From Carallia brachiata (lineage: Eukaryota > Streptophyta > Magnoliopsida > Malpighiales > Rhizophoraceae), in contig JADCRB010000068.1 of assembly GCA_021464245.1 (NCBI GenBank), positions 5,968,565 through 6,032,564 on the forward strand: 64,000 nucleotides of DNA, written 5' to 3'. Of the stretch, positions 12,206 to 63,870 are shown piece by piece. The notes beneath the pieces were generated by a model. That model was not told where the DNA came from. It saw nothing but the letters and a program-made list of their open reading frames with translations, and did not search any database. The position numbers and the translations under genes were made by a program. The stretch's first letter is position 1; each line of letters starts with the position of its first letter.

Positions 12206-12210
12206 GGGTG
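12206..12210. repeat. Target-site duplication, left (GGGTG)
   Basis: GGGTG immediately precedes the 5' LTR and recurs at 21593-21597 immediately after the 3' LTR. A 5-bp duplication is expected for a Ty3/gypsy integrase. Confidence 0.9.
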
Positions 12211-13201
12211 TGTAAACAATTAAAAAAAAAAAAAAAAAGGTTGAAAAGTAAACCCACGTGCTGCATGACATCTTCAAATTTGGTTGATAACATCCATGCA
12301 TTTTCTTCAAACTTGGCTGGCAGACTTGTGCATTTTCAAAATTGGATGGCAAATCCATGCACCTGCTACATTTTCTTCAAGATTGGCTGGCTAAGTTAGG
12401 TGGAATAGTAAATTCCCTTAGCCTATAAATAGATTGATCCAGGATCTTGCAATGGCATCGAGTAAAAAAAAAAACAAGAAGAAGCAATTCCAGAGAATTG
12501 CAAAACATTTAATTCCTTTTGTATTACTACTTTTCTCTCACATTTTTGTACGTTGGGTACATCTTTTCTGAAGACATTCAGCAAATCTGTAAACAGAAAA
12601 ATTAAGAGAATTTGAGAGAAAAAGAAAATTTTGAAAATCTCTCAAGAAAATTTCTCCTTTTCTTACGTGCTTTTACTTAGCAGTATACTCTCCTAACTCC
12701 GTTTTGAGAGATATTTCAGGGGTAAGGCCCAAAAAATTTGCTGTTTCCATTTCTAAAGTTATTTTTAAATTTATATTCTTGAATCGCTCTAGATCTGAAT
12801 TTCTGAGAATATAGATCTAAAAATATCAAATTACTACAAATCCGGCTGGGATTAAGCCTCATACGGCCCTCAGCAAAATCCAGGCAGTTCATCCGAGAAC
12901 AAGTCCCTTCGACTCTCGGTGAAATTAAGTCAGATCGGCTCAGATCAGCTCTTTGCGGTTCGTAACCGTAGTGAAAACGTTCAAATCAGATCCGGTTTTA
13001 GTCTACCAAGTTCGAGAAAAGCAGTGGAAATTTTGTCAAGATCAATCTCGTGCAGCCTTGACGGAGTCAAAAAAGGAACACTAATCGGAGGATCTACGGA
13101 GATCGACCCCACGTAAATTTTTCTTTTTTTTACAATTTTTATTTGTATTTATTTTGTATTTTCGAGTTTAATTGTTTTAGACTCGAAATTTACGCTTTAC
13201 A
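12211..13201 (+). repeat. 5' LTR
   Basis: 991 bp beginning TGTAAACAATT and ending TTTACGCTTTACA, nearly identical to 20589-21592. It contains a probable TATA box (TATAAATA at 12424-12431) followed by the likely transcription start region. A-run length, about ten substitutions and a few small indels separate the two LTRs. Confidence 0.95.
12424..12431 (+). promoter_or_regulatory. LTR TATA box
   Basis: TATAAATA in the context GCCTATAAATAGATT. It is conserved at the same place in the 3' LTR (about 20804-20811). It is the best candidate core promoter of the element. Confidence 0.6.
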
Positions 13202-13205
13202 ATTT

Positions 13206-13221
13206 TGGCACGCTTGGACCA
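13206..13221 (+). promoter_or_regulatory. Candidate primer binding site
   Basis: TGGCACGCTTGGACC lies a few bases after the LTR end. It begins with the TGG that pairs with a tRNA CCA end. The cognate tRNA was not identified. Confidence 0.4.
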
Positions 13222-13249
13222 CTTCACCTCCCATCTCTTGTTCCTTTAA

Positions 13250-13296
13250 AAAAAAAAACAAAAAAGGTAAAAGAAAAGAGCCGAGAAAAAAAAAAG

Positions 13297-13330
<34 letters not shown>

Positions 13331-13440
13331 GCCGAAGAAAAGGAAAAAAAAAAAGAAAAAGAAAAAGAGAAAAAGACAAAATAGAGAAAAAGACGAAAAA
13401 GGTAAAAAAGTAAAAAAAAAAAGTGAAAAAAAAAATTTAA
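13250..13440 (+). repeat. Poly-A/AG purine tract in the element leader
   Basis: A nearly pure A/G stretch downstream of the primer-site region. It creates an apparent Lys-rich frame that is not a real protein. Similar tracts lie at 14340-14510 and 18475-18612 in the same element. Confidence 0.8.
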
Positions 13441-13460
13441 CAAGGTGTTCAGCACATCAA

Positions 13461-14170
13461 ATGGCACCAAAAAGGAGTACAACCACTGCTTCAAAAAAGA
13501 AGGCAACTGCTCCACTGCCTGCATCAACTACCCTACCTGGGTACGCAGGACCACAAACCCGCGGACGGACACAGTTCCTTGCCACTCAATTGAGTCCACA
13601 GACTCGCGCAAGAACAAAGTTCCTCGCCACCAACAAAGTTAAAATTGAGGACTTGCAGCTCACACAGCAGTTAGATTTCTCACGTGACTCTGTCACTAAA
13701 CAAGGAGTCGATCACCTACCCCTACCGAAGTTAGGGGTAGAGCATCAAATTCTGCCCAACAACAGAATCCGACCTATTCTGTACAAACGAACACAGAGGA
13801 AGAAGAAGATCTCTCTACTCTAGTCTTCTATAGAGCATCAAATTCTGCTGAACAGCAAAATCCAATGCGTTGTCCTGAAACAAGTCAGGAAAGATCCGAC
13901 GGGCCCTCTACAACAGTCTTCCGTGGAGAACCATCTACCGCTGCTGATGTCAGGCTGACCAACACCACCAGAATAGAAAAAATGTTTGCAGATTTAAACC
14001 GCGGATATTCACAGCTGATTAGCGGATATGCACAGTTGATTGAAAATATGAAGGAATTAAGACAGCAAATAGATGACGTTAACAAAGGGCTTCACCAAGC
14101 CCAACCCGCTGATGCAGTCAACCGCGAAGATCGTCCTCAATCATCTCGATTTGGGGGGCACAGTTTTTAG
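13461..14170 (+). pseudogene. Gag N-terminal remnant
   Basis: From ATG 13461 the frame starts MAPKRSTTTASKKKATAP, a basic Ala/Ser/Thr-rich N-terminus like those of Tat-type gag. It stops at 13823. A second frame (13865-14170) continues with a predicted coiled segment, 'MFADLNRGYSQLISGYAQL' and 'MKELRQQIDDVNKGL'. The retrotransposon gag core and CCHC knuckle that should follow are absent, so the remnant cannot make a capsid. Assignment as gag rests mainly on position and composition. Confidence 0.5.
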
Positions 14171-14199
14171 CCAATCGGACCAACAGAAGGACGAGAGTA

Positions 14200-14700
14200 C
14201 CGACTCAGCCACAAGCTCATTTCCAAGTGGGATGGGTCATGTCTAGTTCCAAAAAAAAATGCTTTCATATTTTCAGGTCAGAAATGTATTTCGACCTGAC
14301 CCAATAAAGCAGGTAAATTTCGAAATTACTGTTATGTTAAAAAAAAATCTCAAAAAAAAAGACACAAAAAAAAAGCAAAATAATATCAAAAAATTCGAAA
14401 AGAAAAGCCAAAAGTTCGAAAAGAAAAAAAAAGAAAAAAAGTGCAAAAAAGCAAAAAAAAAAAAAAGAGCACGAATAAAGAAAAAAAAAAGGAAAAAAAA
14501 AAGACGTCTGAAGCTCTTGTGCATTTTCAGAACTCTTCATCAAAATTCAAATTTAAATTCGAGAGGGCAAATCTCAAATCCCGACTCAAATTCAAAGCCA
14601 AACATAAACTCGACTAAACTCGGGCTCAAAGCCCAAATCTAAATTCCAAATCCAAATCCAGATTCGAGGGTAAAACTTAAACCCTGAATCAAATTCCAGC
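14200..14700 (+). repeat. Displaced copy of the pol-end and 3' non-coding region
   Basis: At about 14207-14250 the sequence reads 'HKLISKWDGS', matching the pol C-terminus 'DKLTSKWDGP' at about 18330. It is followed, as after the real pol, by A-runs and then C/A-rich 'ctcaaatccc/aaagcccaaat' DNA similar to 18610-18880. A second, decayed copy of the post-pol region therefore sits upstream of pol, in place of gag core and protease. Confidence 0.5.
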
Positions 14701-14838
14701 TCAACAGCTCAATAGCTCACCAAACAGTTCAGTAGCTCAACAGCTCAGCAGCTTACCAAACAGCTCAACAGCTCAACAACTCAGCAGCTCAACAGCTCAG
14801 CAGCTCACCAACTCTCCGGCTCCACAGCTCACCAGTTC
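14696..14838 (+). repeat. CAGCTCA-type short tandem repeat
   Basis: Irregular head-to-tail copies of AACAGCTCA / CAGCAGCTCACC, non-coding, directly upstream of the TATAAAAG repeat array. Confidence 0.85.
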
Positions 14839-15127
14839 AACAAAACACTCCTGCCTCGCACGAGTATAAAAGGCGAACAGCTCCACAGTTCAACACTCCT
14901 GGCTCGCACGAGTATAAAAGGCGATAATCAATCCATCACAATTCAACACTCCTGCCTCGCACGAGTATAAAAGGCGATAATCAATCCATCACAGTTCAAC
15001 ACTCCTGTCTCGCACGAGTATAAAAGGCGACATCACAGTTCAACGCTCCTGCCTCGCACGAGCATAAAAGGCGACACCACAATTCAACACTCCTGCCTCG
15101 CACGAGTATAAAAGGCGACAATACAAC
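14839..15127 (+). repeat. Six-copy tandem repeat containing TATAAAAG
   Basis: Six units of about 44-53 bp share the core CTCCTGCCTCGCACGAG followed by TATAAAAGGCGA. Five have TATAAAAG and one has CATAAAAG. Unit spacers vary (TAATCAATCCATCACA or CATCACA type). A diverged single copy occurs at about 18884-18915. The core is a good match to a plant TATA box, so the array looks like stacked core-promoter modules, but no transcription evidence is available here. Confidence 0.9.
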
Positions 15128-15360
15128 AATGCAGACCCTAACAGGTGAGAAGCAGCCACAGCCTGCCGAACTTTGCCTGTAGGAGGCTCCATCTGCAAGC
15201 ACCATCACATTCCTGCACTATGTGTCGAAGTCACGACGTCTAGAAGGTTAGCCCCCTTTTCCCTTTTTTATTATTGTACTAATCTTAAATAGGAGGAAGG
15301 ACATACCCAACCCGAGTCAGAAGTGCTTCGAAGACAGGCTTATCCAGTCAAACAAAGAAG

Positions 15361-16045
15361 GTGAAGTCAGAGGTTCTGCATTTCATGTCACAATTAGCGA
15401 GGAGGCTAATTCCGACTCATCAGATGGTGAAGTGAAGGAGGCTCCCCCGGAACTTGAAGATAGTGGCCAAGCAACTGTTGATGAACTCAAGGAGGTCAAT
15501 CTTGGCTCTCCGGAAGATCCTCGACCTACATTTGTAAGTGCTTTACTTACTGCAGAAGAAGAACAAGAATATGTTCAGGTATTAAGTCAATACAGGGATG
15601 TGTTCGCATGAAGTTACAAAGAAATGCCTGGACTTGACCCAAAAATTGCGGTGCATCGTCTAGCAGTAAAGAAGGGTGTTCGTTCTGTTAAGCAGCCACA
15701 ACGATGGTTCCGCCCGGAACTCATTCCACACAAATCGAGGAGGAGGTTAACAAGCTGATCAATGCTGGCTTCATCCGAGAGGTCACCTACCCAACATGGA
15801 TTGCCAACATAGTCCTGGTAAGAAAGAAGAATGGACAGTTGAGGGTATGTGTTGATTTTCGAGACCTTAACAGGGTCTGTCCGAAAGATGACTTTCCGTT
15901 GCCCATAACGGAGATCACAGTCGATGCAACAACGGGTCACGAAGCATTGTCCTTCATGGATGGTTCTTCAGGTTATAACCAAATCAGAATGGCACCAGAA
16001 GACGAGGAGTTGACAGCATTCCGCACCCCAAAAGACTTCGCAGGC
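15361..16045 (+). pseudogene. Retrotransposon pol: linker and N-terminal reverse transcriptase
   Basis: The Tat-type linker 'GQATVDELKEVNLGS' and 'DPRPTFVSALLTAEEE' is followed by 'SYKEMPGLDPKIAVHRLAV' and RT fingers/palm 'CVDFRDLN', 'DDFPLPITEI' and 'SFMDGSSGYNQIRM', which includes the first catalytic Asp. A TGA at 15609-15611 replaces the Trp usual before SYKEMPG, and an indel near 15730 shifts the frame. At about 16040 the frame runs from 'AFRTPK' straight into thumb sequence, so the YVDD catalytic block is deleted. The enzyme is inactive. Confidence 0.88.
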
Positions 16046-16640
16046 ATCAGCTCAAAATGAACCCTCTCAAGTATGCATTCGGTGTCACATCAGGAAAGTT
16101 TCTTGGGTTCGTGGTGTGCCATCGTGGAATCGAAGTTGATCAGTCAAAGGTTGAAGTAATTCAAAAGATGCCTGAACCTAAAAACCTGCACGAGCTGCGA
16201 AGTCTACAAGGAAAGCTGGCCTACATTCGCCGTTTCATCTCCAATTTAGCTGGGAGATGTCAACCTTTCCATCGGTTGATGAAGAAAGATGTCAACTTCG
16301 AGTGGGACGAAGCTTGTAGCAAAGCCTTTGAGAGCATAAAGAAGTACCTTTCCAATCCACCAGTCCTGGGAGCTCCAATTCAAGGAAAGTCGTTGATTCT
16401 CTACATTGCAGCGCATGAAAGATCTTTGGGAGCTTTGCTTGCACAGGAAAACGAGCAGGGAAAGGAAGTTGCCCTGTACTACTTAAGCAGAACACTAAAC
16501 GTCCGGAGCTGAGTTATTCGCCCATTGAAAAGACATGTCTAGCACTGTTCTTTGCCATTGACAAGCTGAGGCACTACATGCAAGCTCACACGGTACGTCT
16601 CATTGCCAGAGCTGATCCTGTCAAATATATCTTATCTAGA
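16046..16640 (+). pseudogene. Retrotransposon pol: RT thumb and RNase H1
   Basis: The frame 'MNPLKYAFGVTSGKFLGFV' to 'LRSLQGKLAYIRRFISNLAG' is RT thumb/connection. 'LILYIAAHERSLGALLAQE' begins the Ty3-type RNase H, which lacks the usual catalytic Asp here, as known for Tat elements whose added RNase H is thought to compensate. A frameshift at about 16500 breaks the frame; the continuation 'ELSYSPIEKTCLALFFAID' is in the next frame. Confidence 0.85.
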
Positions 16641-17417
16641 CCAATCTTGTCAGGACGACTTGCCAAGTGGGCAGTAATCCTACAAAGTTACGACATTGTC
16701 TACGTGCCTCAAAAAGCAGTCAAAGGACAAGCCCTAGCAGACTTCCTTGCAGATCACCCTGTTCCGTCAGATTGGGAGTTCACAGATGATCTTCCAGATG
16801 AAGAGGTCTTTTACATTGAGACACTACCACCATGGACGATGTTCTTTGATGGTGCAGCAAGACGTGATGGTGCTGGTGCTGGCATAGTGTTTGTCACCCC
16901 TCAACGACAAATACTACCATATGCTATCATTCTCGGTGAGTTATGTTCAAATAATGTTGCTGAATACCAGGCTTTGATCATTGGTCTTCAAATGGCTGTC
17001 GATATGAAGATTCCAACTATAGAAGTCCATGGAGATTCCCAGCTCGTCATCAACCAACTTACAGGATTGTATGACGTGAAGAAAGAGGATCTTGCGCCTT
17101 ACCATCAACGTGCTCGACAACTAATGGATGAATTTGAAAGCATCACCTTGGAGCATGTGCCTCGACGAGAAAACACTCAGGCAGACGCGTTGGCTAACCT
17201 GGCCACTTCTCTTGCAAAGTCAGAAATCCAGGCTACAGTTGTTGCCGTATGCCAGAAATGGATAGTGCCACAAAAGGATGATGAAGAAACTACAGCAGCC
17301 AACACTGTATCTGTACGTCTCGCGGAGGACGAGGATTGGCGCCAACCAATCATTGACTACCTACAGCACGGGAAGCTGCCCGAAGATCGTCGTCATAAAA
17401 CAGAAATTCAACGATGA
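16641..17417 (+). pseudogene. Retrotransposon pol: archaeal-type RNase H (aRH)
   Basis: The frame 16578-17417 contains 'SGRLAKWAVILQSYDIVYVP', 'KGQALADFLADHPVPSDW', then a complete second RNase H. Its D-E-D-D residues lie in 'MFFDGAARRDGAGAG', 'NNVAEYQALIIGL', 'VHGDSQLVINQL' and 'NTQADALANLA'. A second RNase H placed between the first and the integrase is diagnostic of Tat-clade Ty3/gypsy elements. This domain is intact but out of frame with both neighbours. Confidence 0.9.
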
Positions 17418-18468
17418 GCTCCCCGGTTCATATATATCTCAAGGATGCTCTGTATCGAAGGTCTTTTGATGGAGTTCTACTTCGCTGCCTAGCCAATGAA
17501 GAGGCAAAACAGGCTCTCACTGAAGCACATTCTGGTGTTTGTGGCGGACATCAATCGGGGCCTAAGTTGCACTTCCAACTTAGAAGGATGGGATACTACT
17601 GGCCAACCATGCTTGGGGTCTCGACTTAGTGGGGCCCTTGCCAAAGTCATCCCTGGGTCACCTGTACATCCTCGCAGTAACCGACTACTTCTCAAAATGG
17701 GCTGAAGTCATTCCACTTAGAGAGGTAAAGAAGGAGCATGTTGCCAATTTCATCCGGACTCAGCTGATCTATCGCTATGGAGTCCCTCGATTCATCATCA
17801 CTGATAATGGCAAGCAGTTCTACAACAGCTTAATTGACAAGCTCTGCGAGAAATTCAAGTTCAAGCAGTACAAGTCATCCATGTACAATGCCCCAGCAAA
17901 TGGCTTGGCTGAAGCATTCAACAAGACCTTATGCAACCTGTTGCGGAAGGTAGTCTCTAAATCCAAAAGAGATTGGCATGACAGAATTCCGGAGGCATTA
18001 TGGGCGTATCGTACAACTTACCGGACTCCAACACAGGCGACGCCATACTCACTTGTCTACGGTGTCGAAGCAATACTGCCGTTGGAAACACAGATTCCAT
18101 CCCTGCGCATGGCTGTTCTGGAAGGACTCACACAGGAGGAGAATGCTCGCCTACGTCTGGATGAGTTAGAAGCCCTTGATGAAAGGAGGCTCGAAGCACA
18201 ACAGCAACTTGAGTGCTACCAAGCCCGGCTCACCAACACATTCAACCGCAGGGTCCGCCCTCGATCTTTTCAAGTTGGAGACCTTGTTCTTGCAGTGCGA
18301 CGGCCCATCAACATGAAGCATCGGCCTGGTGACAAGCTTACTTCCAAATGGGATGGGCCATACCTAGTGCAGGAGGCCTACACTCACAACGCTTACATGC
18401 TGTCAGACCAAGAAGGCGTCCGAATCGGCCCAATCAATGGTAAATTTCTGAAACAATATTATGTGTAA
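17418..18468 (+). pseudogene. Retrotransposon pol: integrase
   Basis: The first part (to about 17607) has 'YLKDALYRRSFDGVLLRC' and 'EAHSGVCGGHQSG', the two His of the HHCC zinc finger, ending 'GYYWPTML'. A deletion with frameshift then joins it to 'WGLDLVGPLPKS', removing the Cys-Cys half. The second part (17629-18468) carries the core: the second Asp in 'FIITDNGKQFYNS', Glu in 'NGLAEAFNKT', and the C-terminal 'GDKLTSKWDGPYLVQ'. The DDE residues remain but the zinc domain is broken, so a working integrase is unlikely. Confidence 0.88.
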
Positions 18469-18545
18469 ATATATTTGAAAAAAAAAAAGAAAAAAAAATC
18501 AAAAATCAAAAAAATCAAAAAATCAAAAAAAAAGAAGAAAAAAAT

Positions 18546-18582
<37 letters not shown>

Positions 18583-18920
18583 AAAAAAAAAATCAAAAAA
18601 AAAAAAAAAAAAGTTCGGAAGTCCCGATCTGAAAGTCCAAGCGAAAATCCAAACCCAAAAATCCAAACCCAAACACTTGAGCCCAATTCAGAAAACACAA
18701 AACCTAAGTCCAAAACCCAAACACTCAACCCAAATCCAAAAGTCCAAACCCAAACACTCGACCCAAAAACCCAAATCCAAATCCAAAACCCAAACACTCA
18801 ACCCAAATTCAATTCAAAGCCCAAAACCCAAAAAATTCCAAGTTCCAAACACAGTCCAGAAACCAAGTTCAAAATCCAATCCAACTCCTGGCCCGCATGA
18901 GTATAAACTGTGAACGGCCC
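18469..18920 (+). repeat. Post-pol poly-A and C/A-rich region
   Basis: Long A-runs (18475-18612), then CCAAACCCAAACACTC-type imperfect repeats to about 18880, then one diverged copy of the CTCCTG...GAGTATAAA motif at 18884-18915. Apparent Lys-, Pro- and Asn-rich frames here are composition artefacts. Confidence 0.75.
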
Positions 18921-18994
18921 AAAAATATAAAAGCAACGGAGGGTTTGAGTCTGAAACTCAGCATCAGTCTCAACCGATCTTCACCACATACCAG

Positions 18995-19660
18995 ACCTTT
19001 GCTCCTCTGCCACAAGAAAGATGAAACCAGTTGCAGAACCTCAAGACAAGGGAGAAGAAAGGTCCCCCGCACAAGGTGGCAACCAACCATGGCACAACTG
19101 CAAATTTGGAGGAAGTCTTCCACAACAATGGAGGTATTATGCCTAATGCATCTCAGATTTACCAACTTGTCTCACGATTGCGCCCACTCGGGGCAATCGA
19201 AGGAAAAAATGTGTTTTATTGGTTCCAGAATCGGAGAAGCAGGAAGAAACCAGCACTGAGAGCTGATTTTTCCAAAGAACAGTCTGCGTTCCGATGGTAG
19301 ATCCCACCAGTACAACTTCGCCTCAAATGAAGCAGGTCCGAGTTCTCCACTGCAATGGTCTCTCCACGGTATTCATCAAAGCCGTAGCCCATGGGAGCAT
19401 GCATGCTGGTCCTGGTGGTCTTACGGAGTCAGCCAAGGGTTCATCCCTCCTAGGTACTTAAGTCTAGGAGGACTTTTTCTAGCAGAAAGGAGTCATTCCG
19501 GCGAAACTTTGCCTCTCTTTCCAGAATATTCCGGCAGCATCAACCAGCCGGAAAGCGACGTCAACATCATCGGCCCACCAGACGAGGTCGAGCTTGACTT
19601 GGAGCTGCGCCTCGGCCCCGCTAGGACGGCCGACAAGATAAGGTGCAACGACTTTGGCAC
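18995..19660 (+). pseudogene. Captured WUSCHEL-related homeobox (WOX) sequence inside the retrotransposon
   Basis: Three landmarks of the WUS clade of WOX transcription factors occur in order. The homeodomain spans about 19069-19250: 'RTRWQPTMAQLQI' in one frame, then 'LEEVFHNNGGIMPNASQIY' and 'IEGKNVFYWFQNRRSRKK' in the next, with the helix-3 residues W-F-x-N-x-R. A 100-plus-codon open stretch from about 19293 follows in a third register, with the WUS-box TLPLFP at about 19507 and the acidic/EAR end 'DEVELDLELRLGP' at about 19585. At least two single-base frameshifts (about 19111 and 19285) break it as a single protein. It has the same orientation as pol and shows no intron between homeodomain and WUS-box, suggesting capture through an RNA copy. 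Which WOX gene donated it cannot be told by eye. Confidence 0.85.
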
Positions 19661-19745
19661 ACGGTAACAACTTCTGCAGCACGCGGCAACGACTTCTGCA
19701 GCACGGCAACGACTTCTGCACACACGGTAACGACTTTCGTGACAC
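19639..19745 (+). repeat. Short tandem repeat CAACGACTTCTGCAGCACGG
   Basis: About four or five imperfect copies of a 17-24 bp unit directly after the EAR end of the captured homeobox sequence. The reverse complement gives a Cys/Arg-rich spurious frame. Confidence 0.8.
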
Positions 19746-19923
19746 GCGTCAGCCGCTGCCTCTTTTGTCTCTTATGCAGGAAAGGACGTGGAGGACCCTA
19801 CTCGATTCTGCGTACCTTCTTTTTGACTTTTCAAAAAAAAAAAAAAAAACCTTTATTATGTATATATATCTTGCATGTCCGAGTCATAATACTCACCCCT
19901 CAGCTCTTCTTTCTCAAAAGAAA

Positions 19924-20226
19924 ATGGCTAGTCTCTGCACTTGTCTCAGGAAGTTCTTCGATCAAGAAGTTGGAGGCGCACGAGCTAAGAAAAGAGGGAG
20001 TAGTCTTCTTCGAGGGATCCCTAAAAGCCCTCGAAACTCAGTCTCCAACGCCATCGGTGTCATGGAGTTCCAACTACTCTCCTTAGTTCACATCTACCAC
20101 AGAGGGATGAGAAGCTGCAATTATCCTAATCTTTCTTTGGATGCAGCGACGTACAGGGAAGTTCCAACTACTCTCCTTACGTCGAAGCAGACTTGGAAAT
20201 CATCACTACAGTCAGTCTCTCTGTGA
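19924..20226 (+). CDS. Hypothetical small ORF downstream of the captured homeobox
   Basis: ATG-started 100-aa frame beginning MASLCTCLRKFFDQEVG, basic in its first half (KKRGSSLLRG). I recognise no domain. It follows a poly-A stretch and lies between the WOX sequence and the 3' LTR, so it may be a second captured host fragment, an element-specific 3' ORF, or chance. Confidence 0.25.
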   Translation: MASLCTCLRKFFDQEVGGARAKKRGSSLLRGIPKSPRNSVSNAIGVMEFQLLSLVHIYHRGMRSCNYPNLSLDAATYREVPTTLLTSKQTWKSSLQSVSL

Positions 20227-20570
20227 GCCGGTCTTGAAGTTCCAAGGTCCTGGGCCTTCCTCTTGAGGAGGTTCAAGTTCTTTGCCTACCGGATCATCCT
20301 CACCAGAGCTCTGGAACTTTAAGACATATAAAAAATCCTTTGCGGGCTATGGAAGCTCGAATGCACCTGGAGCCAGAAGGTCAATTTTTATATTGGCTGG
20401 ACTGCTAACTTTCTCAAGATCGTATCGGGTTTCTATTGCGATCCAACAACAGCAGGCATGGTCAAAAATAGAAGACTCCAAGATTCAATGTTCATCAGGA
20501 CGTTTCTAAGTTTCAAACTGGACTTCAAGACTCGGTGCGGATCACATCTGCAAAGTTCTTCCTTACCGAT

Positions 20571-20588
20571 CCTTAAAGTGGGGGCATT
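20571..20588 (+). promoter_or_regulatory. Polypurine tract
   Basis: TTAAAGTGGGGGCATT directly precedes the 3' LTR start at 20589, where plus-strand DNA synthesis of an LTR element is primed. Confidence 0.6.
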
Positions 20589-21592
20589 TGTAAACAATTA
20601 AAAAAAAAAAAAAAAGGGGGTTGAAAAGTAAACCCACGTGCTGCATGACATCTTCAAATTTGGTTGATAACATCCATGCATTTTCTTTAAACTTGGCTGG
20701 CAGACTTGTGCATTTTCAAAATTGGATGGCAAATCCATGCACCTGCTACATTTTCTTCAAGATTGGCTGGCTAAGTTAGGTGGAATAGTAAATTCCCTTA
20801 GCCTATAAATAGATTGATCCAGGATCTTGCAATGGCATCGAGTAAAAAAAAAAACAAGAAGAAGCAATTCCAGAGAATTGCAAAACATTTAATTCCTTTT
20901 GTATTACTACTTTTTCTCTCACATTTTTGTACGTTGGGTACATCTTTTCTGAAGACATTCAGCAAATCTGTAAACAGAAAAATTAAGAGAATTTGAGAGA
21001 AAAAGAAAATTTTGAAAATCTCTCAAGAAAATTTCTCCTTTTCTTACGTGCTTTTACTTAGCAGTATACTCTCCTAACTCCGTTTTGAGAGATATTTCAG
21101 GGGTAAGGCCCAAAAAATTTGTTGTTTCCATTTCTAAAGTTATTTTTAAATTTATATTTCTTGGATCGCTCTAGATCTGAATTTCTGAGAATATAGATCT
21201 AAAAATATCAAATTACTACAAATCCGGCTGGGATTAAGTCTCATACGGCCCTCAGCAAAATCCAGGCAGTTCATCCGAGAACAAGTCCCTTCGACTCTCG
21301 GTGAAATTAAGTCAGATCGGCTCAGATCAGCTCTCTGCGGTTCGTAACCGTAGTGAAAACGTTCAAATCAGATCCGGTTTTAGTCTACCCAGTTCAAGAA
21401 AAAGCAGTGGAAATTATTTCTGTCAAGATCAAGCTCGTGCAGCCCTTGACGGAGTCAAAAAAGGAACACTAATCGGAGGATCTACGGAGATCGACCCCAC
21501 GTAAATTTTTCTTTTCTTTTACAATTTTTATTTGTAATTTATTTTTGTATTTTCGAGTTTAATTGTTTTAGACTCGAAATTTACGCTTTACA
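20589..21592 (+). repeat. 3' LTR
   Basis: 1004 bp, TGTAAACAATT to TTTACA, matching the 5' LTR. Visible differences are few single-base changes and short homopolymer indels. Confidence 0.95.
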
Positions 21593-48610: not shown

Positions 48611-49963
48611 TCAAGCCCTCCAATCATTGAACATCTCTTGAGCAAGTGCATTTCGAAAATTAGACCATTCATTAGACGTGTTAATCGCTCTAATGAACTC
48701 TGTTTCGTTGGCGTTAATAATATTTGGGTCATCTTCATTGTCATGAATTTCCACTACAGTATCTGTAGGCATATATTTCTTTATCAAATTATGCAACAGA
48801 CAACACGCCATGACAATGCGCCCTTGGGTACGTATTGGATAAAATGACGGACTTCGGAGAATTCCCCATCGCCCTTTGAGCAAGCCAAAACATCTTTCTA
48901 TCACATTTCTAGCTTTTGAGTTTTCATGTTGAAATATTCCTCAGCAGTTTGTGGGTGTCTATCACCCCTCCATTCATTAAGGTGATATCGCTGCCCTCTA
49001 TATGGGTGCAAGAAACCCATGCCGTTAGTGTAACCAGCATCAACTAGGTAATAACAACCTGCAAAAAAAAAAAAAAAAAAGGGAACACATAAAAAACAAT
49101 TTTTTATATAACTATTACAAAAAAAATTATATGAACAATAAATAATTTTACCGTGAGGAATTCTTAAACCATTAGGCCTAGAAATTGCATCTCTAAGAAT
49201 GCGACCATCATGTGCTGAACCCTCCCATCCAGGCAATACATATATAAATTGCAAGTCAGGTGAGCAGACGCCCAAAACATTCATTGCGAGATTACCCTTT
49301 CTCGTCCTATATTTAGGTCTCTCTTCAGAGGACACTGATACACTTATAAATGTGCCATCTAAGGCTCCTAAACAATTCTGCAGTACAAAAAAAAAGTGTA
49401 ATGAGATTATAAAGCGTAATATATTATTAAATTAGAAAAAAAGAAACATGCATTTACCTTGAAGCATCTCCACCTAGCATCTGTGCAATCTTCTGGTATA
49501 GGTGTTGGCTTTTTAAGTAATACCTCGTGCAACTTCAAAATAGCCTTCAAACACTGATTAAAATATCTACTTACTGTTTCTCCACTTCTAATGAAATATG
49601 AACTCATTGTATATTTTTCATATGGTGAGATAGTACATATAAACATAGCGACAATTTCCTCCACTGAAATATTTGAGTACCAGTCAAACTGCCTATCTCA
49701 CATAGCATCTCGCAGAGTATGCTAAATGTATGCCTATTCATGCGAAGCTGGCTTTTACATGCGACGTCGCTTTCTCTTATCAAAGTATTTAACTTTGCTA
49801 ATCGCAATTTTTTCCTTTCTTTTTTCTTCATTCTTATGCATTTTTCACTCATAATTATTGCACCCATTTGATGCCAAATAAAATGCATAATGTACATGAG
49901 TATAGTAATCTCCATTATAAATTGTACCAGTAGAAATTTTCTCCTCCCTCTTAAACGAGTCAT
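48611..49963 (-). pseudogene. PIF/Harbinger DDE transposase
   Basis: Reading down the minus strand: an N-terminal basic region and 'LRMNRHTFSILCEMLCEIG', 'EEIVAMFICTIS', 'GETVSRYFNQCLKAILKLHE', a GT-AG intron (49457-49378), '[11 protein letters not shown]' (first Asp), '[18 protein letters not shown]', a second intron (about 49152-49060), '[12 protein letters not shown]' (second Asp), '[11 protein letters not shown]', then '[19 protein letters not shown]' (Glu). All three DDE residues survive. A one-base loss near 48918 and an indel near 49665 break the frame, so the protein is not made intact from this copy. Confidence 0.85.
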
Positions 49964-61870: not shown

Positions 61871-63145
61871 TCTTAACGGGTTACAGCACTTAATGACCCG
61901 ACCTGAGCATGCGAGAGCATTCTGCAAATTCAGCATGTTTATCTAAGCACATATGTATCCTCTATTCAATTCTGTCAAGTTTTAACCTTTCTTGATTTTG
62001 ATTATGCCTCCCAATAACTTAATTTAAGTTTGTATGTATTTCCTTAGCCTAAGTATTTGCATGGTTGCTGAAAGCACCGTGTGCTGATCAATTCAGTATT
62101 TCTAGATTTTAAGATTAGAAATCAATTCCAATATGTTGTTCCAAATCATTTGATATACTTAATAATATATAAAAGAAAGAAGGATTGAGATCTTGTCCAG
62201 TTGTCCCACTAACTTAAGAGACAAAGGTAGACAAATCCTGCTCTGCCATTGTACATAAATGTTACAAATACCCCAAAAATAACTATTTTGCCGAAGAAAA
62301 AGTATTTTCTTTTTCTCTTTTTAAAAAGAAGCTGCATTGAAAAGATGTCTACACCTTACTTGAGTAGGGGGGTTTGAGTGTGTGGGGAAGGATTTTGGGG
62401 CAGAAAGAGAAATGCTTTTTAACAAGAAAAATGCTGCACGAAATGGTACGAATGATAGAGCATCAATTTTTCTTTTTTTTTTGAATTTTTTTAAAAATTA
62501 TGATATAGAATAATTTTATGTATATTTAAAATAATATTAAATATTAATTAGTATTTATTTTTTATTATAAAAATTATATCTAGAGTAATACTAAATATTA
62601 CTTAGAATTTATTTTTTTAGTTAAAATTTGTTTTGTAAAAAAAATTAAAACCTAAACTAAAACATAACAATTTCAAATTTCGTGAGGTTTCACTCGGGTA
62701 GAAAAAGATTTATTTTGTTTTTAGTTTGTGCGTGTTTGGAGTAGGAAAGAAAAACCAAATTTAAAATTTTTTTATGAGGCCCTCAATAAAATAAGATAAT
62801 TATTTTAATGTATATACTTGTACTTTTTACTTTACTGATAGAGAATAATTGCTATCATAATATATAGTATTTTGTTTTGTCTTACTTTTTATTAATTTTC
62901 AATTAAAAAATTTGTAATTTTTTTCCTCATATTATAGTTCCCAAAAACAGATAAGATAAAAATTCTTTGAACATTCTCTTCCCCATTTTTATCTCTTTCA
63001 TTTTCCTTTCCACCTAATTTTTTCTTCCAAGCGCGGGCAACTCCCAAATAGAAGATCTTGCAATAGATTTTAAGTAATAATAATACGTTTACCGACACTT
63101 TATCAATTGAAATTTTTTTATTTGCGATGTTTTATTCTAATCCTT
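61871..63145. other. Intergenic, EHD 3' flank
   Basis: 3' UTR of EHD followed by AT-rich DNA. No gene or clear repeat was seen. Confidence 0.5.
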
Positions 63146-63870
63146 AGCAAGAAAATTTCAAAATTTCAAATTCTCACTTTAAAAAATGTATTATCAAATT
63201 TATAAAAATATGTAAAATTATCTCAAATAACTTACCGTTCAGTTAGTTTTTTAATAAAAATAAAAATAAAAATAAAAATAATAATAATAACAATAATCAT
63301 GCAAGAACCACAATAATTGAAGCACGGGTCGGAACTGTTTTTTTTAAAAGTTTTTTTTTTTGTATATTATAATATAGATTCCAGAAATAAAAGGCAAAAG
63401 AGAAATAAGTTCATCAGTAAGCGTTAGTACAGATGGTAGGAGTCCGTCATCATTTAATAGGAGGTCTTGAATTTGAGTTTTTAGAAATACAGTCACGTTA
63501 AATATTTAGTAAAAAAATTTTAAAATTTTAAATTCTTACTTTAAAAAATGTATTATCAAATTTATAAAAATACATAAAATTATCTCAAATAACTTACGGT
63601 TGAATTAATTTTTTTATTAAAATAATAATAATAATAATAATAATAATCATCATCATGCAAGAACCACAATAATTGAAGCACGGGTCGGAACTGTTTTTTT
63701 TTAAAGTTTTTTTTTTATGTTATAATATAGATTCCAGAAATAAAAGGTAAAAGAGAAATAAGTCCAACAGTAGGCACTAATATGAATAGTAGAAATTCGT
63801 CGCCGCTTAATTAGAGAGGTTTTGAATTTAAATTTTTAAAAATGTATTCACGTTAAATATTTGTTAAAAA
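63146..63870 (+). repeat. Two tandem copies of a 360-bp unit
   Basis: The block AATGTATTATCAAATTTATA at about 63186 recurs at about 63546, and ATGCAAGAACCACAATAATT recurs at about 63298 and 63656, so the offset is about 360 bp through the whole unit. Each copy also has a (AAT)n or (AAAAT)n stretch and TATAGATTCCAGAAATAAAA. Each unit contains a weak tRNA-like A box (TTAGTACAGATGG in copy 1) and B box-like GGTCTTGAATTTGAG, suggesting a SINE-like origin. Confidence 0.85.

Follow-up and report, generated by a model that had tools for sequence, protein, structure and literature searches.

Capture of host genes by plant LTR retrotransposons is already well known, and the closest described cases, maize Bs1 and the captured genes of sorghum, consist in the available parts of two articles (PMC7264820, PMC13317346) of a host gene carried inside an LTR element, usually in pol orientation, as at the locus described here. 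An orchid Gypsy element with an ORF for an AlkB-type m6A demethylase offers a further likeness, as it too is a Ty3/gypsy retrotransposon with dual RNase H domains and an acquired extra ORF containing a cellular domain; however, in the available sections of that study (PMC9289625), which compares elements by the dual RNase H feature, the orchid product was active in vitro and had been kept through several rounds of replication, whereas the acquired sequence here belonged to a transcription factor, is broken and was seen in one copy. The Tat/Ogre/Retand elements, as described in the accessible portion of a survey (PMC11963269), likewise have additional sequence as well as tandem repeats in the interval from pol to the 3' LTR and include defective members; that interval measures 2,933-6,566 bases, compared with 2,120 bases here, and the same portion reports that no sense ORF between pol and the 3' LTR of Retand elements encodes known protein domains. 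A captured WOX gene was not found in the literature searched: the words homeobox and WUSCHEL were absent from the main text of reviews on extra ORFs and gene capture (PMC7264820, PMC13317346) and also from two element surveys (PMC11963269, PMC6317226) and the orchid paper (PMC9289625), the word WOX was absent from PMC11963269, PMC6317226 and PMC13317346, and among the titles and abstract openings listed by full-text searches of the open-access literature there was none on a plant LTR element carrying WOX or WUS, which is not proof of absence.

The window analyzed here, by which we mean the whole stretch of DNA (64 kb), contained a complete LTR retrotransposon at 12211-21592, with an LTR pair, TG...CA ends, a target duplication and a polypurine tract (Table 1). 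The two LTRs were identical in 979 of 1004 alignment columns, the differences comprising 12 substitutions in 991 aligned bases and 13 gap columns; the resulting divergence of 1.2% (K2P = 0.0122) corresponds to an age of ~0.47 or ~0.87 My at plant substitution rates of 1.3e-8 and 7e-9, respectively, and on this measure the copy is a recent insertion. Only the first half of the reverse transcriptase (RT) profile was matched, and the rest was not found, the next ORF (15979-16509) matching, up to E 0.01, none but RNase H families. No gag or protease domain was matched by Pfam in the ORFs tested, nor was the domain set of an autonomous element found, and because half of the RT profile was unmatched the element is probably non-autonomous. 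A second RNase H between RT and integrase is a mark of Tat/Ogre-like elements; here a second RNase H preceded the integrase, and by this domain order the element is probably a Tat/Ogre-like member of Ty3/gypsy. The top integrase match, a metagenome protein, covered 95% of the query at 85% identity; a second one reached 88% over 69%, and the best named relatives among the 120 listed of 1816 matches were from Orobanche (79%), apple and sesame (both 75%), which makes a eudicot the probable host. The content of the window as a whole has the look of plant DNA. An antisense ORF of the Retand TRP28 type between pol and the 3' LTR was not found among the four antisense ORFs tested, which gave no Pfam match up to E 0.1. 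Just 5' of the pol part, the interval 15145-15292 may be an Ogre-like intron: visual inspection showed CAG/GTGAGA, which makes a good 5' splice site for a plant, then TACTAAT resembling a branch point, and AAATAG/GAGG as the 3' site.

Table 1. Features of the retrotransposon and of the WOX block within it (positions in the window).
Feature	Position	Strand	Remarks
5' LTR (TG...CA)	12211-13201	+	target duplication GGGTG just 5' at 12206-12210
Degenerate second copy of integrase tail and A-rich spacer	14094-14712	+	62% identical to 18218-18824
Tandem array, unit holding CTCCTGCCTCGCACGAGTATAAAAGG (TATA-like)	14844-15118	+	
Reverse transcriptase, first half only	15692-16057	+	PF00078 positions 1-99 of 205
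RNase H of RT and second RNase H (RVT_3)	16419-17414	+	PF17917 1.3e-12, PF13456 4.5e-25
Integrase core and C-terminal part	17584-18468	+	PF00665 5.4e-11
A-rich and CCAAAC-rich spacer leading to WOX block	18469-18883	+	
Diverged copy of TATA-like unit, 21/24 bases	18884-18907	+	~114 bases 5' of ATG 19021
First ATG 3' of TATA-like unit	19021-19023	+	possible start; N-terminal reading uncertain
Homeodomain start RTRWQPTMAQLQ	19068-19103	+	frame of ORF 18708-19259
Homeodomain core and helix 3	19106-19297	+	frame of ORF about 19025-19300
Helix 3 NVFYWFQNRRSR	19208-19243	+	inside homeodomain core
Open frame for the WOX C-terminus, containing WUS-box and EAR motif	19260-19667	+	135 codons; stop at 19665-19667
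WUS-box TLPLFP	19506-19523	+	in open frame 19260-19667
EAR-like motif LELRL, within acidic stretch	19599-19613	+	in open frame 19260-19667
Short tandem repeat, about 20 bases	19645-19736	+	overlaps WOX 3' end
3' LTR	20589-21592	+	purine-rich AAAGTGGGGGCATT before, GGGTG after

A preliminary description of this DNA had placed a WOX homeodomain, a WUS-box and an EAR end, in that order and in pol orientation, between the pol end and the 3' LTR of an LTR retrotransposon, and the arrangement was recovered in full: a WOX block at 19068-19667, lying 3' of the integrase stop (18468) and 5' of the 3' LTR (20589), encodes a WUSCHEL-clade homeodomain in pol orientation with both motifs downstream. A profile search of the stop-to-stop ORF at about 19025-19300 (+) gave a significant match to the Pfam Homeobox family (PF00046, E 7.2e-9), and the best solved-structure match of the same ORF was the WUSCHEL homeodomain 6ry3 (E 4.2e-13), with the STENOFOLIA homeodomain also matched (E 6.8e-12). 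An AlphaFold2 model of this ORF, computed from a 36-sequence alignment itself rich in WUS proteins, had three helices at modest confidence (mean pLDDT 65.8), and its best 11 PDB matches were all WUS or STENOFOLIA homeodomains (E 2.8e-3 to 1.7e-2, none reaching E 1e-3). When the read-through of the block was searched against 5.8 billion proteins, 402 relatives up to E 0.001 were found among 539 candidates, and a WUS profile was built from the 120 listed protein matches; a single profile alignment of 83.3 bits covered both parts of the homeodomain, and the WUS-box was recovered by the same profile as a second, weak piece (4.4 bits). The IEGKNVFYWFQN block of WOX homeodomains was present, and the stretch from RW to QN measured 53 residues, the value found in every one of the listed matches (120/120), a length not perfectly exclusive to WUS in that the one WOX2 among these matches shares it. 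An extra homeodomain residue is specific to the WUS clade according to the available part of PMC3701499, where angiosperm WUS has tyrosine at this place while two proteins from ferns and one from a gymnosperm have histidine; in our alignment the element copy had this extra residue as histidine, against tyrosine in the WUS consensus.

The C-terminal part of the block was equally characteristic in its motifs. A TLxLFP followed by L[DE]LxL occurred once in the six frames of the 64 kb and never in the three forward frames when the WOX block was shuffled 200 times; TLPLFP was found in 119 of the 120 listed matches, the exception being WOX2 with TLNLFP, and L[ED]LxL followed the WUS-box in 113 of them. 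The Pfam EAR model matched LELRL at E 0.18, below its cut-off, and was excluded from the evidence; EAR-like motifs occur only in the WUS and WOX5/7 subclades, as stated in the available text of PMC6274733 and similarly of PMC5977200. WUS-clade proteins have an acidic region before the WUS-box, and here the acidic residues lie, as judged by eye, after it. The interval of ~200 bases between homeodomain and WUS-box was open in one frame with no intron-like gap, which bears out the preliminary description on the absence of an intron, as does the 135-codon frame on its statement that more than 100 C-terminal codons stay open. Its account of frameshifts was likewise upheld: the WOX reading is interrupted by two or more frame changes, one near 19104 into the homeodomain frame and one within 19260-19297 back to the first frame, and a third is required if translation begins at ATG 19021; no intact open reading frame was found. 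Openness by itself is weak evidence for the block, because an equally long stop-free path with up to three frame switches arose in 13 of 300 base shuffles, and homology carries the case.

Most of the named proteins among the 120 listed of 402 matches were called WUSCHEL, and none of the listed relatives exceeded 53% identity when matches spanning a quarter or more of the query were considered. The homeodomain ORF searched alone gave one candidate and one match, P0241, a metagenome protein of 91 aa resembling a WOX3 fragment, which was closest by homeodomain (37/61 identities) and shares with the element a similar, unusual tail of helix 3 (NRKSRSK vs NRRSRKK) as well as the residues AQL and NASQI. 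Identity over the 61 homeodomain positions was 30 to the WUS consensus, 28-32 to WUS, WOX1-4 and WOX6 and 26 to WOX5, the individual proteins being Arabidopsis sequences; most modern-clade members are thus at a similar distance from the element copy. In a FastTree analysis of 62 columns (12 distinct WUS-type homeodomains, ten from Arabidopsis, P0010 and P0241), the element formed a long branch that joined WOX9/11/13 with a support of 0.84, not WUS, in a tree that was poorly resolved over so short a domain. On this comparison the homeodomain by itself does not point to WUS, and at 5 of the 12 lost WUS-only positions the residue equals that of a paralogue, which leaves room for more than one donor. 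Judged on its motifs, the block is of WUS-clade derivation and reads as a frame-broken sequence, not a working gene. It resembles WUSCHEL and the other modern-clade WOX proteins in its longer WUS-type homeodomain, TLPLFP WUS-box and C-terminal LxLxL in identical order, but differs from them in being frame-broken and retrotransposon-borne, in the low homeodomain identity given above, in the tail of helix 3 (NRRSRKK vs NHKARERQK in the WUSCHEL type) and in the distance from QN to the WUS-box (~93 residues in the read-through vs 98-175 in the 120 listed matches).

The homeodomain very likely diverged before the present insertion, because an identity of 30/61 would be very unlikely to arise within <1 My given that, of the 61 columns compared, 42 show conservation of 98% or more among 119 WUS-type proteins, and the captured sequence is thus probably older than this copy of the element. 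Among the 42 conserved columns, the element kept the residue at 24 of 29 that are also common to WOX2 and P0241 but at 1 of 13 others (p = 6e-6); the contrast held with WOX2 alone as the sharer (25/35 vs 0/7, p = 7e-4), with P0241 alone (24/30 vs 1/12, p = 3e-5) and with the IEGKNVFYWFQN block left out (12/17 vs 1/13, p = 8e-4). This pattern suggests protein-level selection during much of the divergence, not plain decay from WUS, and it fits constraint acting either before capture, in a host gene that was already divergent, or afterwards in the element. We also simulated neutral decay of the WUS consensus to equal identity under two mutation models (2000 runs each). Runs with zero stops made up 10% and 5%, runs with substitutions as conservative as those observed 1.6-1.7%, and runs with both 0.1-0.15%, while the conserved-column contrast appeared in none; the simulation is given little weight, its donor codons and donor paralogue having been assumed and its frames chosen.

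Sequence preceding the WOX block was related to other parts of the element. Two copies of the integrase tail and A-rich spacer are present, and because of this the element appears to have undergone an old internal rearrangement, perhaps through template switching, a type of event that could also acquire a host mRNA. The tandem array at 14844-15118 comprised about six repeats of a unit of 44-53 bases, of which five contain the TATA-box-like TATAAAAGG, and is a possible internal promoter cluster of the element. The diverged unit in the leader of the WOX block scored 18 against the array unit, compared with a maximum of 13 in 300 dinucleotide shuffles, and the spacer containing it may serve as a promoter for the block. 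Farther downstream, an open frame starting MASLCTCLRKFFDQEVGG lies at 19924-20226 between the WOX block and the 3' LTR, and the ORF that contains it (19642-20223) matched no Pfam family up to E 1.

We consider it likely that the block originated when the element lineage captured a WUS-clade WOX transcript, probably via RNA, and that it has since decayed. Capture of WOX sequence by the element is well supported, in that the block is enclosed by the LTR and target-duplication boundaries and its leader holds the element's own TATA-like unit. RNA-mediated capture appears likely because the intron between homeodomain and WUS-box is missing, an absence that only suggests such a route. In this reading, reverse transcription in a Tat/Ogre-like Ty3/gypsy lineage would most likely have switched template onto a co-packaged host mRNA, so that the coding portion of a transcript from a WUSCHEL-clade WOX gene came to lie 3' of the integrase gene and ahead of the 3' LTR; the lineage would then have carried the captured gene as passenger or accessory cargo, in pol orientation and behind its own TATA-like spacer. 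The present copy would be a recent insertion whose frame changes most likely allow no full WOX protein now, and any present effect would come from RNA or a truncated homeodomain product. The spread of homeobox RNA, small RNAs or promoters suggested in the preliminary description would be hypothetical. Counting against a cargo of a whole family, the WOX-bearing element is known from one copy: tblastn found no second WOX copy in the 64-kb window beyond the block, except a 22-residue match at E 3.7, and among viral contigs the homeodomain ORF gave 19 pattern matches, 0 of them confirmed, and the integrase 0 matches.

The constraint pattern in the diverged homeodomain also bears on whether the WOX sequence was an accessory transcription factor maintained by selection acting on the element, where it would promote a stem-cell state or act on the element's promoter, with this copy decayed. 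All three functional motifs were kept and a TATA-like unit lies 5' of them, and the accessible text of PMC9289625 provides a precedent in the functional extra ORF retained in dual-RNase H Ty3/gypsy elements. However, this copy is frame-broken, the constraint may predate capture, and the close relative sought among the listed matches was lacking. Furthermore, the WUS-type motifs gave no clear enrichment of the kind expected for self-regulation via sites in the LTR or leader: TAAT, TTAATG and TGAATG were not enriched in the LTR relative to shuffles, its TTAATT count was equalled in 68 of 500 shuffles and its single CACGTG in 22 of 500, and the leader held none of the five motifs. We regard such a role as unlikely, and use of WOX by the element is unproven. 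It seems quite unlikely that a WUSCHEL-type regulator served a plant LTR lineage as a selected accessory gene that raised the lineage's own transmission, either by driving host cells to stem-cell identity or through action in meristem cells from which the germline derives; if true, the case would parallel, in plants, the cellular oncogenes of animal retroviruses.

The single known copy and the rearranged state of the element are also compatible with a WOX retrocopy or WOX-carrying transposon having inserted into this one element after, or shortly before, its integration, and a 30-base inverted pair of 70% identity (21/30) does flank the block (19014-19043 and 20108-20137). This pair, the best around the block, was nevertheless at chance level, its score being reached in 25 of 40 shuffles, and the bases adjoining its arms showed no target duplication; a nested DNA transposon was rejected on the level of this pair. 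Insertion as part of a Helitron, or as a retrocopy lacking terminal repeats, is possible. The leader unit of the WOX block is common to the element's own array, and the strong divergence would demand that an old, separately decayed WOX sequence jumped in, and we judge a late insertion of this kind to be decidedly improbable.

Acquisition at the DNA level, through read-through transduction of a neighboring genomic WOX gene or recombination with it, would follow a route described for retroelements in the available part of PMC13317346, where flanking sequence is transduced. At this locus, however, the interval between homeodomain and WUS-box is free of intron-like sequence and the block sits upstream of the 3' LTR, not downstream, and we hold this origin to be very unlikely. 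The preliminary description had maintained that the three marks together could not be chance, and in agreement with it a chance resemblance or an unrelated homeodomain-like stretch, for which only the broken frame and the weak openness test speak, has a practically negligible probability and is ruled out by the Pfam, PDB and WUS-profile matches and two further motifs in order.

The presence of a WUS-clade-derived, frame-broken sequence in a young, probably non-autonomous Tat-like retrotransposon is real. With capture by the element lineage as the preferred reading, the cargo would be a striking one, a master regulator of the meristem that has retained its motifs for DNA binding and repression. 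Should the block be present in several copies, the sequence family would make it possible to ask directly whether an element of this kind has ever benefited from a regulator of development, and also whether WOX RNA or small RNAs made from the element affect the host gene. Elsewhere, the window also contained pieces matching a carbamoyltransferase and a dynamin-type GTPase, Harbinger-like transposase pieces with a DDE_Tnp_4 domain on the minus strand (48611-49428), and, at 63139-63816, direct repeats ~353-362 bases apart that were 80-89% identical.
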